Below are positions 5,432-44,344 of a stretch of DNA of 44,486 nt, in pieces (within the stretch, counting starts at the first letter, position 1; each line of letters opens with the position of its first letter). The notes below the pieces were generated by a model. That model made no database searches. It was given only the letters and a program-made list of their open reading frames with translations, and was not told the origin of the DNA. Source of the DNA: a virus; the IMG/VR virus record IMGVR_UViG_3300049489_000807, positions 1 to 44,486 of that record. One strand, 5' to 3'. Position numbers and translations under genes: made by a program.

Positions 5432-6171
5432 CCGCGCTCGCAAAAGCAAAGGCTCGCTCGTTTGAGCGTTGGAATCAGAAGCAGTTCACCCTCACGAGCG
5501 GAAGCATCGCCTACAAGGGCGGCCAAGCAGTGCTTGGAGTTGGCACTGGCAAGGTGATCCCTGCGGCTGCAGGCGTGGGTTTGCGCTCCATCGGCACGTT
5601 TGCCGAGAACATGGATGCGTCGAGCGCTGACAAGCTGGTCAACATCGACCTCGGCCGAGAGGTCGTTGCCGAGTGGCTCGCAAACAGCGGGACCAATCCC
5701 GTCGCGGCGACGGACCTCGGATCCATGGCCTACCTGGAGGATGACCAAACGGTTGGCATCTCGCCCGCGGGGTTTTCGCCCGCTGGCATCATCTGGGGAT
5801 ACAGCTCGACGCAGGGTGTGCTCGTCGAGCGGATGGTGACTCCGCGCTCTACCCTCGACGGCCTGAACGGCGTAAACGGCGCGACTCTCGCTTTCGCGGC
5901 GGCAGACATCGTGATCGGGAACAACCCGAAAAGCGGCACGATTTACGACGTTCCGACATCGGCGGCGAACTCCACGATCTCGCTCCCCGCGACCGCGGTC
6001 GAGGGAACGATTTTGTACTTCAAAGCGGACGGCACGAAGAACGGGCACACCGTTCAGTATCGCGACGTCGCCACTGCGATCACCACGGCTCTCACCGCAT
6101 CAAAACGCCACCTGGTTGTGTGCGTGTTCAGCGGCGCGAAGTGGTTCGCCAACGCTTACGTGAGCCCGTGA
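5428..6171 (+). CDS. Putative capsid decoration/stabilisation protein
   Basis: A 247-residue protein between the protease-scaffold and major capsid genes, the position of head decoration proteins. The N-terminal part (IAYKGGQAVLGVGTGKVIPA) resembles the DUF2190-type head stabilisation fold, a small beta-barrel that cements capsomers. The second half is Ala/Thr/Gly-rich beta-strand sequence (DVPTSAANSTISLPATAVEG), possibly a surface domain. The start overlaps the previous stop by 4 bp. The family call rests on position and general sequence character. Confidence 0.65.
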   Translation: MTALAKAKARSFERWNQKQFTLTSGSIAYKGGQAVLGVGTGKVIPAAAGVGLRSIGTFAENMDASSADKLVNIDLGREVVAEWLANSGTNPVAATDLGSMAYLEDDQTVGISPAGFSPAGIIWGYSSTQGVLVERMVTPRSTLDGLNGVNGATLAFAAADIVIGNNPKSGTIYDVPTSAANSTISLPATAVEGTILYFKADGTKNGHTVQYRDVATAITTALTASKRHLVVCVFSGAKWFANAYVSP

Positions 6172-25132: not shown

Positions 25133-25204
25133 GCCCGAGTAGCTCAGGGGTAGAGCAGCGCATTCGTAATGCGCAGGTCGGGGGTTCAAATCCCTTCTCG
25201 GGCT
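25133..25204 (+). tRNA. tRNA-Thr (anticodon CGU), likely part of the attachment site
   Basis: A complete cloverleaf: acceptor stem GCCCGAG/CTCGGGC, D arm GCTC/GAGC, anticodon stem GCGCA/TGCGC with loop TTCGTAA (CGU, reads ACG, Thr), and T arm GGGGG-TTCAAAT-CCCTT with two G-U pairs. No CCA is encoded. tRNA genes are common integration targets, and the integrase gene runs into this one from the other side. A normal attP keeps only the tRNA 3' part, so a full copy is unusual. Confidence 0.93.
25133..25204. other. Candidate attP core within tRNA-Thr
   Basis: The tRNA lies between the arm-like repeats and the integrase gene, and phage genes continue on both sides. This is therefore not a prophage end but an uncrossed attP. 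The crossover is expected in the anticodon or T-arm part, where attB identity restores the host tRNA. The exact core cannot be set without the host sequence. Confidence 0.55.
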
Positions 25205-26466
25205 CCCTTTTTCATCTTCGGTTTGTCGCCCCGCCCGAGCGCTTCGCGGCTCTCGATGACGGCGCGCTGTGAGGCAATGCCGAGCGCCTTCGCGTAACGC
25301 TCCACGGTCGACGTGTCGGCGTGGCCAAGGTGCGATGCGATCTCCGGCAGCGACCAAATTCGACCGCCCGTGAAGAGCTCGGTCCCAAGCAACAAGTGCG
25401 ACGCGCACGTGTGCCGCAGCGAGTACAGGGGGACCGGGCGAGCGATGCCGATCTTTTCACGCCAGCCCGCGGACTCAGTCACCCCGCGACGTGCCGCGTA
25501 TTCGACGAGCTCACCGGCTCGGTTGTACTTCTTCCATTTGCGGCGCCCCCGGGTGCTCGCCCAGCCCCAGTCATAGCCCTTCGTGTGCGGCTCACCATTC
25601 TCGCCGCAGAACACCAAGCCGGTTCGTGGACGACCGCAACGGATCCACCACTCGCGCACGGCGTCAAGGGCGATCGGCAGCAAGTGAGCAAGGTAGTCGC
25701 GCCCCTTTTTTTGCGACCGGAAGAAAATCGTTTTGCCTTCAACGTCGACGCGATCCCACCCGAGCGTGTACAGGTCTTTTGGACGGGCGCCAGTGAACGC
25801 GAGCAGCGTGTATGCGACGCGGATGCGTTGGGGAAGCGTCTTGCTCTCGAGAATTCTTCGTACCTCGTCGACGTGCAGAAAGTCGTAGTCAGATCCACCG
25901 CTCTTCACGCGGAGCATGGTGCTGTCCGAGATCGTGATCGACTCAGCGACGTTTCGATCGACGTGTCCCTCGATGCGCGCCCAACGGAGCACGTTGCGCA
26001 GGGTTTGGATCACGTTTTGGATCGTCTGGCGTTGCGGAAGCTGGCCCTTGCTCTTGCCGCCCGCGATCGGTGTGCGCGCTTGTTGATCGATCCAACGTTG
26101 GCACGCGCGCTCATTGAGTTGCGAAACGGGCCAATCAATGAACTCGGCCACTTCTTCGACCCGGGCGCGCCAGCGACTTCCTTCTTCCTTGAGGCGAGTG
26201 CCGGACAAGGTTTTGAGATAACCTTCCCCCACCTTGCGCACGGTCATGATGCCGGTTTCAAACGGAGCGCGAGCGCCGTTTTTGACGCGTTCATCAAGCC
26301 AAGCGGCAAGGTAAGCGACGGCGTCACCGTACTCGGTGAGCCCGCCCTTTATCGTCGTCTGTTTGCCGTCTTTATGGACGAGCACGTCGTATCGGACGGT
26401 TTGATCTTTCAACGTGCGCTTACGGATATGCCCGGAGCCGGGGGAGCTCCGCTTACTGCTACTCAT
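25186..26466 (-). CDS. int: Tyrosine site-specific integrase
   Basis: Integrates and excises the phage at the attachment site. The 426-residue protein has an arm-binding-like beta N-terminus (about 10-60), a core-binding helical domain (about 75-170) and the catalytic domain. Its active-site residues are Arg228 (TGARPKDL), Arg351 (LYSLRHTCASH), His382 (HLGHAD) and the nucleophile Tyr391 (STVERYAKAL). The usual first His of the HxxR motif is Tyr348, a known variation. It is the last gene of the leftward early operon. The final six or so codons and stop lie inside the tRNA-Thr gene, on the opposite strand. Confidence 0.94.
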   Translation of the reverse strand: MSSSKRSSPGSGHIRKRTLKDQTVRYDVLVHKDGKQTTIKGGLTEYGDAVAYLAAWLDERVKNGARAPFETGIMTVRKVGEGYLKTLSGTRLKEEGSRWRARVEEVAEFIDWPVSQLNERACQRWIDQQARTPIAGGKSKGQLPQRQTIQNVIQTLRNVLRWARIEGHVDRNVAESITISDSTMLRVKSGGSDYDFLHVDEVRRILESKTLPQRIRVAYTLLAFTGARPKDLYTLGWDRVDVEGKTIFFRSQKKGRDYLAHLLPIALDAVREWWIRCGRPRTGLVFCGENGEPHTKGYDWGWASTRGRRKWKKYNRAGELVEYAARRGVTESAGWREKIGIARPVPLYSLRHTCASHLLLGTELFTGGRIWSLPEIASHLGHADTSTVERYAKALGIASQRAVIESREALGRGDKPKMKKGAREGI

Positions 26467-29783: not shown

Positions 29784-30365
29784 TCAGAACGGGATGTCGT
29801 CGTCGGGAGGCGCCTGGTAGTCCGATGGCCCCACGTTGTTGCGATTACCGCCCCCGTACGTGCGGCCGTTCTGCTGTGGGCGCTGTTGTTGCTGTGGTGC
29901 GCGCTGTTGTTGCGGCGCACCGCGCGGCGCTTGGCGTTGCTGTGTTTGTTGCTGGGGTGCGCCCCCCGTGATGTCGCGTGCAAGGCCGCGCATGCGTGCC
30001 GCGAAGGCGCGCTTTTGCCCTTCGTCCATTTGCTGCTTCATGGCGACACCGATGCGGTTCACGAACGCGGGCTTGTAGTGAACGCTCCCGTCGTCGGCCG
30101 TCTCTTCCTCGAGCACGAGCTCAAACTCGGTGCTTCCGAGGCCCGGGAGCGGAATCACGTCGTTGATGTCGCCTCCCATGATCGCGAGGCTTTCGAGCGT
30201 GCGGCGCTCACTTTGCTCAGTGAAATACCCGTACCAAGTGACCGATTGGCCCGCGAGCTCGCCGTCGAGACACTCGACGCGAACACCGACTTGCTCCGTC
30301 CCTGTGCTCGCGAAACCGTACACGTGCGAACCAGGTACTGCCTTCGCTTTGACCTTGATCGTCAT
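29784..30365 (-). CDS. ssb: Single-stranded DNA-binding protein
   Basis: A 193-residue protein with a beta-rich N-terminal OB-like domain (about 1-130, including GSHVYGFASTGTEQVGVRVEC), a Gln/Pro/Gly-rich flexible linker (QQQTQQRQAPRGAPQQQ) and the acidic tip DDDIPF at the very C-terminus. That tip is the signature by which SSBs recruit partner proteins. It coats single-stranded DNA in replication and recombination. It shares the operon with the Sak4-like ATPase and exonuclease, so it likely works with them. Confidence 0.87.
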   Translation of the reverse strand: MTIKVKAKAVPGSHVYGFASTGTEQVGVRVECLDGELAGQSVTWYGYFTEQSERRTLESLAIMGGDINDVIPLPGLGSTEFELVLEEETADDGSVHYKPAFVNRIGVAMKQQMDEGQKRAFAARMRGLARDITGGAPQQQTQQRQAPRGAPQQQRAPQQQQRPQQNGRTYGGGNRNNVGPSDYQAPPDDDIPF

Positions 30366-38170: not shown

Positions 38171-38716
38171 ATGGCTCCGAAACCCCGCACCTTCACGCGC
38201 GAGCTGCCGTGCAAGCTCACCGACAAAGAGAAAGCGCTCAAGAGCGAGAAGCTCGTCGCCGACCTCAGCGAAATCAGCGAGCTCGAGCTGCGCAAGAAAG
38301 CTGCCACCGCTGAACTCAGCGCCAATATCAGAGTGCTGCGCGCTACCGCTTCGCAGCTCGCCGGCGAGCTCAAGCGTGGCGAAGAGTTCCGCGAAATCTC
38401 CTGCTACGAGCGCCCGGTGTGGGGCTCGAACGAGGTCGAGTTGATCCGCGCCGACACGAAGGAAGTCGTGCAGGTGCGCGGCATGCTTCCCGAAGAACGT
38501 CAGCAAGCACTGGAATACGAAGGCGACGGGATTCCTGCGCCTGCGACCCCTAAGGGGCGTGGAAGGAAGAAGAAGGCGGAAGCGGAGTCGCCGGCGGCCG
38601 AACCCGCGAATGGCAATGGGCATGCTCAGGTCCTTGACCTCGCGTCGGAGAAAAAGAAGCGCGGGCGGCCGAAGAAGAGCGCGACCACGGAAGCGACCAC
38701 GCCGGCGGAGGTCTGA
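38171..38716 (+). CDS. AT-hook-containing phage protein
   Basis: A 181-residue protein. The N-terminal part is a coiled coil (LTDKEKALKSEKLVADLSEISELELRKKAATAELSANIRVLRATASQLAGELKRG), followed by a small beta segment (EFREISCYERPVWGSNEVELIRADT). The C-terminus has two basic AT-hook-like motifs (PKGRGRKKK; KKRGRPKKS). It likely binds DNA. Similar proteins are found in other phages near replication genes but are unassigned. Confidence 0.65.
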   Translation: MAPKPRTFTRELPCKLTDKEKALKSEKLVADLSEISELELRKKAATAELSANIRVLRATASQLAGELKRGEEFREISCYERPVWGSNEVELIRADTKEVVQVRGMLPEERQQALEYEGDGIPAPATPKGRGRKKKAEAESPAAEPANGNGHAQVLDLASEKKKRGRPKKSATTEATTPAEV

Positions 38717-39245: not shown

Positions 39246-40099
39246 GGAAAGAATGCATACGCGTCGCTCATGACTGGCTCTTCAATCGCCCATCGTTTGA
39301 AGACCAGCGCGCAAACGCCACGCCTCAAAAACAGGCCGTGTGGGATGCTGCATGTGCTTGGGCTGACTGCGGCATGCAAAGCGTGCGAATGCCGCATCGC
39401 TATGCAGCCGCGCTGATGGCAACCGACGTCGCGAAATGCTCTGACTTTCAATTCCCTTGGCCAGTTTTCGAGGTGATGGTCCCAAACGGACTGCTTGCGT
39501 GTGACGCGATGGGTGAATTGACCAGCGTACTGGTCATCAGCAGCGAAGATGACGTCTACGCCTTCCTGCTTTTTGATGATGGTGGCCGCGGCAGATTCGC
39601 CATCATCGCGTCAAGCACGAACGAGTTCTTGTACGGGGTACAGCAAGACCCGGAGGAGTCCAACTACCTCCATGAAGCGCTAGGGACGAATGATCCGGAA
39701 GCTGAAAGGGATCCTTCGTCTAGACGGTTGATGTCACTGGCGGTTCGACTGGTTGCAAACGCATCCCTTGACATCACAACGACACCTTCGCGTTTGCTCA
39801 AAGCTAAGAGGCTGAGCCCGAAAAAACCCAAGCACGGGCTGGTAACACCCGTCGGGTTTGAGATCGGCCGCCCGCTCGATCTCGATTGCCGGCAAGACAT
39901 CCGCGATTACGTCGCCGGCAAGCGAAGCACTGAACCTAAGGTAACGACGCTCGTTCGTGGCCATTGGCGCAATCAAGTGCATGGGCCAGGTAACGCGCTC
40001 CGCAAGATCATATGGGTTCAGCCTTTTTATCGTGGACACGGCCCTATGATCGTGCGTCCCACGCGCCTCGGCTTCCGGCACGACGAGGAAATCTCGTGA
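39242..40099 (+). CDS. Large unknown protein upstream of the primase
   Basis: A 285-residue protein from GTG 39242, which overlaps the previous stop. It has a helical N-terminus, a beta-rich middle with FLLFDDGGRGRFAIIASSTNEF, and a C-terminal segment VTTLVRGHWRNQVHGPGNALRKIIWVQPFYRGHGPMIVRP. The final segment resembles a motif I have seen in other unassigned phage and mobile-element proteins. It is coupled to the primase-helicase by a 1- or 4-base overlap, so a role in replication is likely, but no function can be named. Confidence 0.6.
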   Translation: MRKECIRVAHDWLFNRPSFEDQRANATPQKQAVWDAACAWADCGMQSVRMPHRYAAALMATDVAKCSDFQFPWPVFEVMVPNGLLACDAMGELTSVLVISSEDDVYAFLLFDDGGRGRFAIIASSTNEFLYGVQQDPEESNYLHEALGTNDPEAERDPSSRRLMSLAVRLVANASLDITTTPSRLLKAKRLSPKKPKHGLVTPVGFEIGRPLDLDCRQDIRDYVAGKRSTEPKVTTLVRGHWRNQVHGPGNALRKIIWVQPFYRGHGPMIVRPTRLGFRHDEEIS

Positions 40100-42063
40100 T
40101 GATCGAACGTCACGATTCCATGCGAAGAGTGCTTGCAAAGCTCCAGAACGTGAAGCGTTCGGGAGGCGGATACACTGCGCAATGCCCTGCGCATCCGGAC
40201 AAGCACAACAGTCTAGGTATCGACAAGATCGACGGGAAGGTCTGCCTAAAGTGCCACGCAGGTTGCAGCACAGAAGCTGTTGTCGCGGCCATTGACTTGC
40301 GCATGACCGACCTCTTCGACGAGCCCCCGAAGGCACCCGAAGAGCGCGAGGTCAAGCAAGGGCCGAAGTCGTGCACGCTCGATGCCCTGTGCGCGCACAA
40401 GAGACTCCCGCGTGATTTCGTGTGCTCGCTCGGGTGGCGCGAATATTCCCAGAACGGCCTGTCGCGCGTCGAGATCCCCTACTTCGATCGCCATGGGAAG
40501 GTGGTGCGCGTGCGCCATCGCTTCGCGCTTGCCGCGAAGGAAGGTTCGTCATGGAACAGCGGCAAGGCGCTGATTGCCTACGAGCCCGATAAGGGCGCGC
40601 TTGCGTTCACCGAGCGCTACGTGCTCATCGTCGAAGGCGAAACGGACACGGTGACCTGCCTCTACGCGGGCATCCCGGCGATCGGCCTGCCCGGTGCGAC
40701 GCAACAAAAGTGCCTCGAAGCGCACCACGTCGCCGGCCTCGACCGAGTGTTCATTTCGCAGGAGCCTGATCAGGGCGGCGAGAAGTTCGTCGCGGGCGTG
40801 AAGGAGCGCCTTCAAGAACTCGGTTACGACGGCCCCGTTTTCGTCTTCAAGACGCCGAACGCCGCGAAAGACCCGAACGCGCTCTACCAGCGCGACCCCG
40901 AGAAGTTCGCCGAAGCCATGGCGGCCGCGTTCGTGGAAGCGTCCAAGCCGCCCCCCGAGCTGCTCGACGACGTGTGGAAGACCCTCGGCGAGTGGGGCTC
41001 GCTCACGAACGAGCCGCCCCCGCGCAAATGGCTCTTGCAGCGCCCCGACGACGAAACCGACGGAGAGCGCCAAGTCGGCGTGCTCCCGCTCGGTAAGGTC
41101 GGCATGCTCGTGTCCGCCGGCGGCGTCGGAAAGACCATGGCCCTTGTCGAGCTCGCCCTCAGCGTCGCCACCGGGCGCAAGTGGCTCGACTTCTTCGCCG
41201 TGGCCAACTCCGGACGCGTGTTGCTCGCCCTCGGCGAAGAGGACGCTGAGGAGATCGGGCGCCGTGTCTTTCAAGCTGCACGCGCCATGCGCCTCACCGA
41301 CCAGCAAATGGAGCTCGCCGCGTCCAACATCGTGGCCATGCCGCTCACGGGCCGCCCCGTGGCGCTCGTCGACGGCGACGGCGCGACTTCCACCGCGTCC
41401 GCCATGCTCGCGGCCCTACGCAAGCGCCTGGACGCGACGCCGGGCGCGTGGCGCCTCCTGATTCTCGACCCCTTGTCTCGCTTCGCGGGCACGGACACCG
41501 AGAAAGACAATTCTGCGGCCACTCGATTCGTCGAAGTGGCCGAGTCACTGGTTCGTTCGCCGGGCGCACCAACGGTCCTCGTCGCGCACCACACCAACAA
41601 GACATCGAGAACGGACGAGCACTCAAAAGCGAGTGCCGCCCATGCCCGAGGAGCTTCGGGGTTGATCGATGGCGTTCGGTGGGTGTGCAACCTCGAGCCG
41701 TTGACCGACGACTCTGTCAATTTGGAGGTCACCAAGTCGAACTACTCTCCTCGCGGTCAATCCATCACGCTTGTCCGAGACGCCGAGTTCGGGGGCTATC
41801 TACGTGTGCAGACCGAGGCAGAGGCCTCCGCTCGGGCGGGTAGACCGTCGGCGAGTGTGCAACGCGCGGAAGCCGCTCGGGGCATCGTGATTCGAACGAT
41901 CGCTGAGCACACTGGACTTCGGTCCGGAAACGATGTCTACCAGATCTGCAAGGGTAACCGGCCAGCGGTTCTCATTGCCCTACGTGAGCTACGGCAAGAG
42001 GGTTTTGTCGAACTCACACCGGAGGGTTTTCGACTCTCCGAGCGGAGCGGTTTGAATGAGTAA
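40099..42063 (+). CDS. Primase / RepA-type helicase with C-terminal winged helix
   Basis: A replication protein of 654 residues (ATG 40099; GTG 40096 also possible). Residues 29-52 carry a CHC2-like zinc motif (Cys29, His32, Cys49, Cys52). A Toprim-like domain follows (VEGETD 178-183; EPDQGG 222-227). Then comes an AAA_25/RepA-type ATPase: Walker A SAGGVGKT (339-346), Walker B LLILDPL (453-459), sensor VAHHTNK (about 495-501). The C-terminus (about 590-645) is a winged-helix-like domain (GNRPAVLIALRELRQEGFVELTPEGFRL). The stop is immediately followed by GGTACC-type palindromes. Priming and unwinding at the phage origin are inferred. Confidence 0.85.
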   Translation: MIERHDSMRRVLAKLQNVKRSGGGYTAQCPAHPDKHNSLGIDKIDGKVCLKCHAGCSTEAVVAAIDLRMTDLFDEPPKAPEEREVKQGPKSCTLDALCAHKRLPRDFVCSLGWREYSQNGLSRVEIPYFDRHGKVVRVRHRFALAAKEGSSWNSGKALIAYEPDKGALAFTERYVLIVEGETDTVTCLYAGIPAIGLPGATQQKCLEAHHVAGLDRVFISQEPDQGGEKFVAGVKERLQELGYDGPVFVFKTPNAAKDPNALYQRDPEKFAEAMAAAFVEASKPPPELLDDVWKTLGEWGSLTNEPPPRKWLLQRPDDETDGERQVGVLPLGKVGMLVSAGGVGKTMALVELALSVATGRKWLDFFAVANSGRVLLALGEEDAEEIGRRVFQAARAMRLTDQQMELAASNIVAMPLTGRPVALVDGDGATSTASAMLAALRKRLDATPGAWRLLILDPLSRFAGTDTEKDNSAATRFVEVAESLVRSPGAPTVLVAHHTNKTSRTDEHSKASAAHARGASGLIDGVRWVCNLEPLTDDSVNLEVTKSNYSPRGQSITLVRDAEFGGYLRVQTEAEASARAGRPSASVQRAEAARGIVIRTIAEHTGLRSGNDVYQICKGNRPAVLIALRELRQEGFVELTPEGFRLSERSGLNE

Positions 42064-42195
42064 CTGGTACCAAAACAGTTTGGTACCAGTACCAAAACCA
42101 CCGGTCGGGCTGGACTGGTACCAGCCCTTTACCCCCAGGGGGGGTAATAAAGGGGCCCGGTACCAGTACCAGCCTAGTGCGTTGGTACTGGTACC
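42063..42195. repeat. GGTACC palindromic repeats: candidate origin of replication
   Basis: Starts in the last base of the primase-helicase stop. A perfect 12-bp inverted repeat ACTGGTACCAAA/TTTGGTACCAGT (42063-42074, 42079-42090) is followed by further GGTACC hexamers at 42117, 42159 and 42190. The longer unit GGTACCAGTACCA occurs at 42082 and 42159 and inverted at 42183-42195. A C-rich/G-rich hairpin lies between (42125-42156). The next gene begins only at 42318. A cluster of iteron-like palindromes touching an initiator gene is typical of a replication origin; this is inference. Confidence 0.6.
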
Positions 42196-42317
42196 AGTGC
42201 CGAGTGAGAGGGGGGGAGAAGGCAAGAAAGAGCCTGCTCAAAAACCCCGATGGCCGACCACCCCGCTTAGCCATGGATGGGTCATGGGGCCATGGCTAGC
42301 TCGACTCGGAGGTCAGC
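42196..42317. other. Non-coding spacer after the palindrome array
   Basis: A 122-base stretch between the array and the next start. It holds a G-run (42207-42217) and partly palindromic CCATGG-containing blocks (CCATGGATGGGTCATGGGGCCATGG at 42271-42295, two CCATGG copies). I see no gene in it. It may be part of the origin region. Confidence 0.4.
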
Positions 42318-42554
42318 ATGCCTAAGAAGCACGCAGAACCACCGAATCCGCTCGCGGTGATGTTTCGCGTACGCGTGGTGTTCGGCGCGGGCGCGTTCAT
42401 TCACCTCCTGAGCGAAACGGAGCCTGTTGTAACGAGCTCGTGCGGAGTGATTGAGAACGTTGCTCTGACCCTTGTTCAAGGGACTGAGCACGGCGATACG
42501 GTCGGATTCATTCGATGGTCTGACGTGTCGTGCGTCACGTGGAGGAAAGCGTGA
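42318..42554 (+). CDS. Small beta-rich protein, unknown
   Basis: A 78-residue protein from ATG 42318 with a good CGGAGG site. The body is strand-rich (VMFRVRVVFGAGAFIHLLSETEPVVTSSCGVIENVALTLVQG) and ends in a GTGA overlap with the next gene. No family recognised. Confidence 0.55.
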   Translation: MPKKHAEPPNPLAVMFRVRVVFGAGAFIHLLSETEPVVTSSCGVIENVALTLVQGTEHGDTVGFIRWSDVSCVTWRKA

Positions 42555-42763
42555 AGCGCTCGACTCAAACGCCCAAGCTTCCACCGAAGGGTCATAGCGA
42601 GCCGTTCCAAAGGGAACGCGTCATTGCGTCGAGCTTCGCCGACACGCACGGAATAGCTCCGAGCGTTCGCGACGAGCTCGCGCAGGCTCTCGCTGACTAC
42701 CGGGTCGAGCTCAAGGCCGTTTGGGACAAGACACGCGCTTGGAATGAACGGAGGGGCCTGTGA
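42551..42763 (+). CDS. Small protein upstream of the resolvase
   Basis: A 70-residue protein from GTG 42551, overlapping the previous stop and the resolvase start. A basic N-terminus (KRSTQTPKLPPKGHSEPFQRER) and a helical C-terminus (VRDELAQALADYRVELKAVWDKTRAW). No family recognised; likely a small replication accessory. Confidence 0.5.
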   Translation: MKRSTQTPKLPPKGHSEPFQRERVIASSFADTHGIAPSVRDELAQALADYRVELKAVWDKTRAWNERRGL

Positions 42764-43425
42764 ACCCGCTCGGCCCCCTCTACCCCGTGAAGGGCAAGAG
42801 CAAGGTCCTCCCCTGCTCAAACCTCCCTCACCGCTGCGCACTGCTCTCCGTGGACCCAGGGGAGGTCTCAGGGTGGGCCATCTACGCTCGCGGCGTCCTG
42901 CAGGTGTACGGGCACTGCGATGTCTTTGGCCCCGAGGTCGCTCGCGTGATCGGCGCCTTCCTTTTCGAGTGCGGTCCGCACGTCGCGGCCATTGAGCGCC
43001 CCTTTCGCGTCCGCTTCGGCTCGCAAACGAATATCGGGGCAGCGGACCGAATCTGGCGTGAGCGGCTCAAGGAAGCCCGCGTACGCCACATCGTTCGCGT
43101 CTACCCGTCCACGTGGCGCGCTCGCGTGCTCGGGCCCGGGTGGGGCAGCGTCGAGCGGAAAAAGGTGCGCCTCGAAGAGCAGCGCGTTGCTTCGCTCGCG
43201 GTGGGAGCGACCGTGCATCCGGATGAAGCGCCCGCGATTTTGCAGGGACGCTACGCGTGTTTCGCGGGTGAGGTCGGCCAGAAAATCAGCCCTCAGCCGA
43301 AGTCGAAAAAGGAGAAGTCGTCATGCTCGAGTGGTTCTTCGCTTGGCTCCGACGAGTTCTCGGGCTCTTCGTCTCGCTCGACTTCGACGACTGGCTCGAA
43401 GCGTTTCTCTTCGAGGAGCAGGTGA
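42760..43425 (+). CDS. RuvC-like Holliday junction resolvase
   Basis: A 221-residue RNase H-fold nuclease-like protein. Conserved acidic positions: Asp32 (LLSVDPGEVSGWAIY), Glu79 (VAAIERPFRV) and Asp155/Glu156 (HPDEAPAILQGRYA). It would cut four-way junctions or branched DNA before packaging. After about residue 180 the protein ends in a Ser-rich tail (SSCSSGSSLGSDEFSGSSSR). That tail is coded over another small gene (43323-43430), so its sequence may be a by-product of overprinting. It starts with an ATGA-type overlap. Confidence 0.8.
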   Translation: MNPLGPLYPVKGKSKVLPCSNLPHRCALLSVDPGEVSGWAIYARGVLQVYGHCDVFGPEVARVIGAFLFECGPHVAAIERPFRVRFGSQTNIGAADRIWRERLKEARVRHIVRVYPSTWRARVLGPGWGSVERKKVRLEEQRVASLAVGATVHPDEAPAILQGRYACFAGEVGQKISPQPKSKKEKSSCSSGSSLGSDEFSGSSSRSTSTTGSKRFSSRSR

Positions 43426-43430
43426 CGTGA
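43323..43430 (+). CDS. 35-residue protein nested in the resolvase tail
   Basis: ATG 43323 follows AAGGAGAAG and the frame runs MLEWFFAWLRRVLGLFVSLD... to TGA 43428-43430, directly at the next ATG (43430). The product is an aromatic, hydrophobic amphipathic helix, as in many small phage membrane-active or inhibitory peptides. Its coding bases overlap the Ser-rich C-terminus of the resolvase in a different frame. The strong start site and perfect stop/start junction argue that it is real. Confidence 0.6.
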   Translation: MLEWFFAWLRRVLGLFVSLDFDDWLEAFLFEEQVT

Positions 43431-44220
43431 TGCTTTCAAAGGAGTGGAGTCGGTCCGATCTCGAGTTCATGCGTTGCGTTATGGCGCATGCGGAAGAAGT
43501 GGCCGAGGAATATCGCGTGGAGGAGTCCCGCTTTCGCGGCGACGGGTTCACGAGGGACCAGCTCATTCACTTACTGTGTGGCCAGTCGCCGCTCGCGATT
43601 GCAGATGGCCTTCCCCTCGACCTTCGAAGCAGCGCGGTGGTTTTCGATGGGCAGCGTGGGGCCTCGAGAGCACTCGCGAGAAGACGGACGCGAAGCTGGC
43701 CATGCTGAAGGCCTTCGTGCGCCGCGGCCACCTCGCGCTCGTGATCTCCGAGATGGCCCGAGGCGGGTACCGCACGGGTGACCGCAGCACGGATACGAGC
43801 GCGCTGGCCGCCGGCAAGGAGTCGGGCGGCATCGAGTACGGCGCGGCCCTATTGCTCGGTCTGCGCTCGGTGAAGGGCGAGAACAACCTCACGGACGTGG
43901 AGGTCGCCAAGAACCGTCTCGGGGGCGCTAAGCCCGAGTTCCGCATTCGCCTGGACCGTGACCGGGCCGAGTTCGTCGAAGTGCCGATGCCCGCTGCGGA
44001 AGAGCAACGCGAGGCCAAGGAAGACGCGAAGGACGCGAAGGCCCGCGCTCGTGTCATCGAAGCCGTCAAGAGCAAGGAGCTCCGCACCAAGGACGAGTTG
44101 GTCATCGCGGCCGGTGGCCGCCGCTCCGAGACATGGCGAGCGATGACCAAACTCCTGCTCGAGGGCACCCTTGTGCAGGTCGCGGGCGTCTTCCGGCTCC
44201 ACGTTTCGGAGGCCGTATGA
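43430..44220 (+). pseudogene. Second RepA/RecA-like ATPase, frameshifted, P-loop lost
   Basis: The first frame from ATG 43430 (MLSKEWSRSDLEF...LPLDLRSSAVVFDGQRG) ends at 43708. The other frame carries LESTREKTDAKLAMLKAFVRRGHLALVISEMARGGYR...ALAAGKESGGIEYGAALLLGLRSVKGE, typical of the RecA-like replicative ATPase core after Walker B, and ends in a winged helix (GRRSETWRAMTKLLLEGTLVQVAGVFRL). One extra G in GGGG (43658-43661) would join the two into 263 residues. No Walker A is present upstream, so even repaired it would lack ATP binding. A decayed or truncated initiator-type ATPase is the best reading. Confidence 0.65.
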
Positions 44221-44225
44221 CGCGC

Positions 44226-44344
44226 TGTTCCCGAGTGTTCCCGAGTGTTCCCGGAACAGGCGGTACACTCTGTTCCCGTGTTCCCCTCCCCTATAGGGGG
44301 AACAGGGAACGGGTACAGAGCTCGGTAGGCCAAGTTTGTTCCCG
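44226..44344. repeat. TGTTCCC repeats and hairpin after the broken ATPase
   Basis: TGTTCCCGAG is repeated head to tail at 44226 and 44236, then TGTTCC-C-GGAACA (44246-44258) is a palindrome. Further TGTTCCC copies lie at 44271 and 44337, and inverted GGGAACA at 44298. Bases 44268-44320 fold into one large stem (CTCTGTTCCCG... / ...CGGGTACAGAG). The array directly follows the broken ATPase, just as the GGTACC array follows the intact one. A palindrome CCCGCTC-TC-GAGCGGG lies at 44341-44356. Confidence 0.65.

Follow-up and report, generated by a model that had tools for sequence, protein, structure and literature searches.

The principle that a helicase reads iterons located behind its own gene is already known for AAA+ and superfamily 3 (SF3) motors. 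In Rep of Staphylococcus aureus pathogenicity islands (SaPIs) and phage-inducible chromosomal islands (PICIs), and in Cch2 of the staphylococcal cassette chromosome (SCC), the protein uses its C-terminal domain to bind iterons that lie directly 3' of the gene encoding it; SaPIs and PICIs have two iteron sets, and a self-loading helicase has been proposed for them (PMC7581432, PMC6092414). For ORF904 of pRN1, which combines a primase, an SF3 helicase and a winged helix, the required element is a stem-loop located 54 bp past the end of the gene (PMC4234260). Here we analyse the phage record IMGVR_UViG_3300049489_000807 from IMG/VR (44,486 bases, classed as linear), the whole of which is referred to as the window. 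It carries a primase-helicase gene, P0001 (unit 1), and the C-terminal half of a DnaB-like ATPase (unit 2), each followed directly by an array of short repeats (arrays 1 and 2).

The window resembles the SaPI/PICI Rep-ori arrangement in that the repeats follow the genes immediately, at 0 bp in unit 1 and 6 bp in unit 2. However, the SaPI/PICI iterons flank an AT-rich region, whereas the repeats of the window flank a GC-rich hairpin, and the SaPI/PICI motor is of the AAA+/D5 type (VapE-like), whereas P0001 has a RecA-fold AAA_25 motor and belongs to a tailed phage; VapE proteins of other phages do have such arrays. In pRN1 (ORF904) and phage BIP-1, a primase-helicase with a C-terminal winged helix is accompanied by a stem-loop that lies shortly 3' of the gene and belongs to the origin (PMC4234260). 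P0001 has a predicted winged helix and, 3' of its gene, a hairpin that is conserved in its nearest relative, L376, and would be the counterpart of that stem-loop if it acted in an origin. In those systems an archaeo-eukaryotic primase and an SF3 helicase act at an origin without iterons, whereas P0001 combines a RecA-fold motor with an array of putative iterons. The alpha protein of phage P4 also holds a Toprim-type primase, a helicase and a C-terminal winged-helix iteron binder in one protein (partly after PMC4234260). Its helicase is of the SF3 type, in contrast to the RecA fold of P0001. The P4 sites are not known to be placed immediately behind the gene in the manner seen in the window. 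The closest motor fold is that of RSF1010 RepA (Z 23), which is one of three separate proteins in RSF1010, whereas unit 1 is a single polypeptide. The RSF1010 oriV is an iteron origin with primase hairpins.

We consider it probable that the units of the window encode, or encoded, self-loading initiator helicases with the layout of SaPI/PICI Rep and a RecA-fold motor, the winged helix of which would bind origin iterons behind its own gene. We infer binding, helicase loading and origin function from comparisons that establish the position and generality of the arrays, their co-variation with the tail, block replacement, and a predicted winged-helix fold.

Unit 1: a primase-helicase with a repeat array at its stop codon

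The P0001 gene (40099..42063, plus strand) encodes 654 amino acids that comprise a zinc/Toprim-type primase half, a RecA-fold AAA_25 helicase and a C-terminal winged helix. The protein matched Pfam AAA_25 (E = 1.1 × 10−29) and a PHROG primase/helicase family (E = 4 × 10−28) and contains the Walker A motif GGVGKT; the Pfam search returned neither a VapE-like/D5 match nor an SF3 family match. RSF1010 RepA and T7 gp4 were among the solved structures closest to the AlphaFold2 (AF2) model of P0001 (for 1olo, RSF1010 RepA: VIA Z 23.1, 232 residues, root-mean-square deviation 3.9).

The initial annotation had proposed that P0001 ends in a winged-helix-like segment with GGTACC-type palindromes at once behind it, and both parts of this proposal agree with the model and the sequence. 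The AF2 model predicts a winged-helix domain at residues 585-646 (41851..42036, plus strand), with helices at 585-603, 610-617 and 621-633 followed by two strands, at a predicted local distance difference test (pLDDT) score of about 80-87; the last 70 residues show the same helix-helix-helix-strand-strand topology whether taken from the full-length model or modelled in isolation. In a Foldseek search with the winged-helix model, many winged-helix regulators were among the top-ranking hits, all as weak matches with E of 0.007 or more. The third helix, RPAVLIALRELRQ (41959..41997, plus strand), is the predicted recognition helix.

The TAA stop codon of P0001 occupies 42061-42063, and the first ACTGGTACCA begins at 42063, that is, 0 bp after the stop. 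Array 1 (42063..42198) contains 12 GTACCA half-sites in both orientations, all within 42065-42196, several of which pair into TGGTACCA / ACTGGTACCAGT palindromes. Nine of the 11 GGTACCA matches in the window fall in this array, and the best 7-mer of positions 42064-42364, CTGGTAC, is present 6 times compared to a shuffle mean of 2.1, a count that none of 1000 dinucleotide shuffles equalled. The center of the array is occupied by a hairpin, CCCTTTACCCCC...GGGGGTAATAAAGGGG (42118..42165), with a predicted DNA folding energy of −14.1 kcal/mol (z = −2.1).

The nearest relative of P0001, L376, is 62-63% identical over the whole protein and is followed, from about 5 bp after the stop, by eight copies of AGTTCCC (5957-6140). 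The hairpin between the iteron halves is homologous in array 1 and in L376 (CCCTTT[AG]CCCCC...GGGG[TC]AATAA), where it reaches z = −6.1, has a bulge at a similar place, and differs by a single compensatory change from A:T to G:C. The L376 iterons are nearer to the class of array 2 than to array 1. L376 has one unit, and no second one was found in the 4 kb examined downstream of it. Another relative, L251, is 53% identical to P0001 in the motor; its N-terminus is of the DnaB type, its winged helix is a different one, and its repeats are GGACGGGT.

Arrays behind helicase genes in other phages

The annotation had further expected repeats directly behind the corresponding genes of relatives, and arrays were indeed present there, within tens of bases of the stop codon. 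A motor-first sample was drawn with a DNA pattern for the Walker A sequence GPPGSFKSF, which is blind to the downstream sequence, and yielded 63 distinct Toprim+AAA_25 helicases, 38 of them non-redundant. An array was called significant when, in the 300 bp after the stop, a 7-mer was present at least 4 times and more often than in all 200 shuffles. Such arrays followed 30 of the 38 non-redundant helicases, compared to 1 of 213 other gene ends on the same contigs (Fisher p = 2 × 10−30). Among AAA_25 genes of bacterial genomes, collected by protein similarity from the phylum of a Gemmatimonadaceae genome, 10 of 25 had arrays at p = 0.001, and nine of these ten array-bearing genes have winged-helix-like tails as judged by eye. 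A viral-contig search with P0001 alone returned no relatives, and the alignment of six divergent motors contained no usable conserved stretch.

In a repeat-first sample, IMG/VR was scanned for GGTACCA and TGTTCCC arrays. The scans returned many unrelated coding repeats, together with a clear class in which the array begins 0-30 bp past a helicase or primase stop codon; the motors of this class are AAA_25, VapE and DnaB_C, and the primase is Toprim, Prim-Pol or absent. Most matches to the GGTACCA pattern were discarded, being coding collagen-like repeats or having no gene end nearby. Arrays are also found behind the helicase in cultured phages, namely GTATAAA (10 copies) in Roseobacter phage CRP-831 and GGCGGAGAT-type repeats (12 copies) in Rhizobium phage RHph_N65, with a sparser CGGACA set in Vibrio 1.076.O; none was found behind the helicase in Caulobacter GB2A, Wolbachia WO gp5, MW202711 or the Rhabdochlamydia plasmid. 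Many bacterial viruses appear to carry a DNA-copying motor, its DNA-reading tail and the repeats for that tail as one compact unit.

Four VapE-type and other non-AAA_25 replication proteins (L203, L214, L217 and L228) have TGTTCC(C) arrays in opposed orientation behind the stop, and these arrays surround AT-rich stretches, a layout near the published PICI one. A GC-rich CCC-AT-GGG core was tried as a general mark of arrays and rejected, being present in 7 of 92 arrays and 24 of 1320 other gene ends.

Co-variation and block exchange of tail and repeats

Across 41 helicases, the similarity of repeat motifs was correlated with the identity of the winged helices once the identity of the ATPases was removed (partial Mantel r = 0.55, p = 0.001, a value that is optimistic because the sequences compared are related), and the converse correlation with the ATPase, given the winged helix, was r = −0.24. 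The sequence of the repeats is thus tied to the winged helix and not to the motor. Pairs of helicases with motors 94-99% identical and tails 23-34% identical have wholly different repeats, for example ATCAGAA vs. GTAACAA. DNA alignment of two pairs, L319/L343 and L321/L361, shows a motor identity of about 0.9-1.0 and a single, sharply bounded divergent block of about 0.4 identity, extending roughly from −400 to +100 around the stop, after which the next gene returns to 0.7-0.9. The co-variation of repeats with the winged helix that had been predicted is therefore seen both for the domain as a whole and for one recognition-helix residue (below), and the notion that the two drift together holds insofar as tail and repeats change together; the change, however, is often the replacement of one block and not slow drift alone.

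The residue was identified in a scan of all tail columns of the largest tail type, F-x1-x2-x3-W-x4-R, with 24 tails. The third recognition-helix residue, x2, was the column that best predicted iteron base 4 (mutual information 1.40 of 1.58 bits); its rank is informative, whereas its p value is optimistic because the 24 tails are related. Tails with K at x2 go with GGAGACA/GCGACA (base G), those with T with GGTTACA/CTTACA (base T), and those with V, M or I with GGTAACA/GGGAACA (base A).

A second residue pattern concerns the tail type of the window. The recognition helix reads KGNRPAVLIAL in P0001 and KGRRADVLAAY in L376, and several further tails facing TTCCC-type iterons likewise have an arginine at the position of the asparagine (GSRRS in L180, GGRRS in unit 2, GARNA in L379, GARKQ in L380), whereas L026, the other GGTACC unit with this helix, has GSNRT. 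This small comparison by eye is suggestive of arginine vs. asparagine going with TTCCC vs. GGTACC iterons. We speculate that unit 1 may have switched to GGTACC because a TGTTCCC unit was also there, avoiding cross-reading.

A sequence that is not an iteron, CGAGAGTCTA, is common to 26 of the 41 arrays, of many iteron types, and is usually part of the palindrome GAGTCTAGGACTC. Part of the array region thus stays while the iterons change, and the palindrome containing CGAGAGTCTA is a candidate for a fixed part of the origin. The palindrome GAGTCTAGGACTC or GAGTCTAGAAGACTC lies in or beside arrays with different iterons in L140, L254, L260, L280, L306, L319-L321, L328, L361 and L362.

Unit 2: an ATPase C-terminal half with its own array

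The second unit had been annotated as a broken ATPase at 43430-44220 followed by TGTTCCC repeats. The gene end and the repeats are as described, but the interval is not one reading frame: from 43430 to about 43640 it contains a different, unrelated small open reading frame (ORF) in another frame, and the ATPase begins only at about 43640. A DnaB-like ATPase is thus represented at 43640..44220 (plus strand) by its C-terminal half, which lacks Walker A and the exact 5' limit of which is uncertain. GC content at third codon positions (GC3) changes frame near 43620 and is 0.77-0.92 in the ATPase frame from about 43640 to about 44150. The protein matches the DnaB-like family phrog_19 over the C-terminal part only (E = 5 × 10−5) and is 36% identical to the C-terminal half of the L002 helicase. 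Its putative winged-helix tail (44038..44208, plus strand) was delimited by alignment with L002, L180 and P0001 and includes the recognition segment GRRSETWRAMTK at about 44119-44160, which aligns with RPAVLIALRELRQ of P0001. The C-terminal segments quoted earlier as similar in the two ATPases are both present and align at the recognition helix.

The stop codon of unit 2 is at 44218-44220, and the first TGTTCCC starts at 44226, 6 bp after it. Array 2 (44226..44343) holds 7 exact TGTTCCC copies (6 on the plus and 1 on the minus strand) of the 10 in the window, plus partial sites; none of 1000 dinucleotide shuffles reached 7. A chance origin was rejected for both arrays (0 of 1000 dinucleotide shuffles each). 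When non-overlapping 7-mers were counted along the entire window, at least 5 copies per 140 bp were reached only in arrays 1 and 2 and in a CGGAACG cluster described below. A central palindrome, CCCCTATAGGGG (44288..44299), can be read from the sequence of array 2, and similar palindromes are found inside the arrays of L409, L404 and L374.

Most likely, unit 1, with GGTACC, is the intact replicon and unit 2 is a remnant that lost the N-terminal half of its motor, which is the simplest reading because Walker A is missing and a foreign ORF has been joined. The annotation had taken two such tandem units, one of them decaying, as a sign of an origin swap or an acquired second replicon, and either may apply to unit 2. 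Because the fragment keeps a good coding signal, some weight must be given to a rather unlikely alternative, namely that unit 2 is not decaying and that its C-terminal half is translated from an ATG at 43702 as a winged-helix protein of 172 amino acids that binds TGTTCCC and regulates or competes. The open frame with high GC3 over most of its length and the exactness of all seven TGTTCCC copies would fit such a protein; however, the fragment lacks both the Walker A motif and the N-terminal half, its upstream neighbour is a fused, unrelated ORF in a different frame, and this short form was not found in any relative that we met.

Origins, operators or packaging sites

Several observations weigh against an origin function of the arrays. 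Their AT content, 42% in array 1 and 38% in array 2, is at most slightly above that of the genome, and the usual AT-rich melting region is absent from both, with a GC-rich hairpin in its place. Some winged-helix-tailed relatives, such as L407 and, in the sample, L267, have no array directly behind the gene, and the co-variation p values are optimistic, as stated above. The cumulative GC skew, which had been suggested as a guide to the origin, has its minimum at 38362, near array 1 but not at it; this minimum is confounded because gene direction switches near 35.9 kb, and it is compatible with an origin at array 1.

We regard as improbable a reading of the arrays as operators, through which the winged helix, or the helicase via its winged helix, controls its own operon or downstream genes while replication starts elsewhere. 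Although the winged-helix model weakly resembles MarR/IclR/CggR-type regulators (E of about 0.02-0.04) and the arrays sit between genes, replicative helicases with several unrelated kinds of motor (AAA_25, VapE and DnaB_C) carry the reader domain as a fusion. Furthermore, the arrays are located behind stop codons, not before promoters, with opposed iteron sets around a hairpin, and in SaPIs/PICIs and pRN1 an origin with this layout has been proven.

Very improbable, in our assessment, is that array 2 consists of packaging sites read by terminase, which assumes a circular genome: the array (44226-44343) lies at the end of the record, and its start holds the large terminase as well as an ORF resembling a small terminase, with another GGAAC-containing cluster (CGGAACG) adjoining the first ORF, but the record is classed as linear, TGTTCCC arrays follow winged-helix helicases in unrelated phages, and the winged helix of the remnant fits that helicase class (GRRS; compare GSRRS in L180 and KGRRA in L376). 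We did not adopt intrinsic terminators as a full explanation, no terminator scan having been made, because the repeats are numerous, point in either direction and vary in sequence along with the winged helix.

Other features of the window

The window encodes terminase, capsid and tail proteins, Sak4, an exonuclease and an integrase adjoining tRNA-Thr, with the replication gene toward the right end. The complete tRNA-Thr (CGT) at 25133-25206 and the integrase gene (25186-26466) overlap at the 3' end of the latter, as in phages that integrate into tRNA genes. An ORF at 29784-30365, between Sak4 and other early genes, finishes with the acidic residues DDDIPF, a tail that is typically seen in single-strand DNA-binding proteins, and its PHROG match is marginal (E of about 0.1). 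The sequence CGGAACG is present about five times at 28-113, within the first 120 bases, upstream of the large terminase. The first ORF is possibly the small terminase, and the cluster could be a packaging or regulatory site.

Proposed mechanism and implications

Under the origin reading, each unit would be, or would have been, a self-contained phage replicon. The C-terminal winged helix of the RecA-fold helicase, which is fused to a primase in unit 1, would bind the short iterons just past its own stop codon. With many copies bound on either side of the central hairpin, the helicase would assemble there and load onto the opened strands, after which the fused primase would begin synthesis. Because its motor is closest to RSF1010 RepA, unit 1 may be read as a single chain that unites the helicase function of RepA, the primase function of RepB and the iteron binding of RepC. 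Since reader and sites are adjacent, they would be exchangeable together, in a block spanning a few hundred bases, and could also drift jointly, and we propose that both processes would leave the motor conserved and yield origins that are incompatible with one another.

In the literature searched, which covers subscription journals thinly, we found no description of RecA-fold AAA_25 phage helicases with 3' iterons, nor of the block exchange or the residue-base pattern. We lean toward the view that these units represent a class of phage replicons that is widespread but undescribed, in which a RecA-fold replicative helicase serves as the initiator itself, the winged helix and its cognate iterons form one exchangeable cassette with a residue-to-base code, and of which the window holds two members, one orphaned. 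If so, the layout described as unique to PICIs extends to a different helicase superfamily, and both origin and reader would be findable from sequence alone in many phages and integrated elements, for which mapped origins are rare. The pairs of winged helix and iteron would naturally serve as data for working out a code of protein-DNA recognition, and a code in the recognition helix would let origins and incompatibility groups be predicted for many phages. Block exchange would show how phages change the identity of their origins, with a bearing on incompatibility, superinfection and satellite parasitism.

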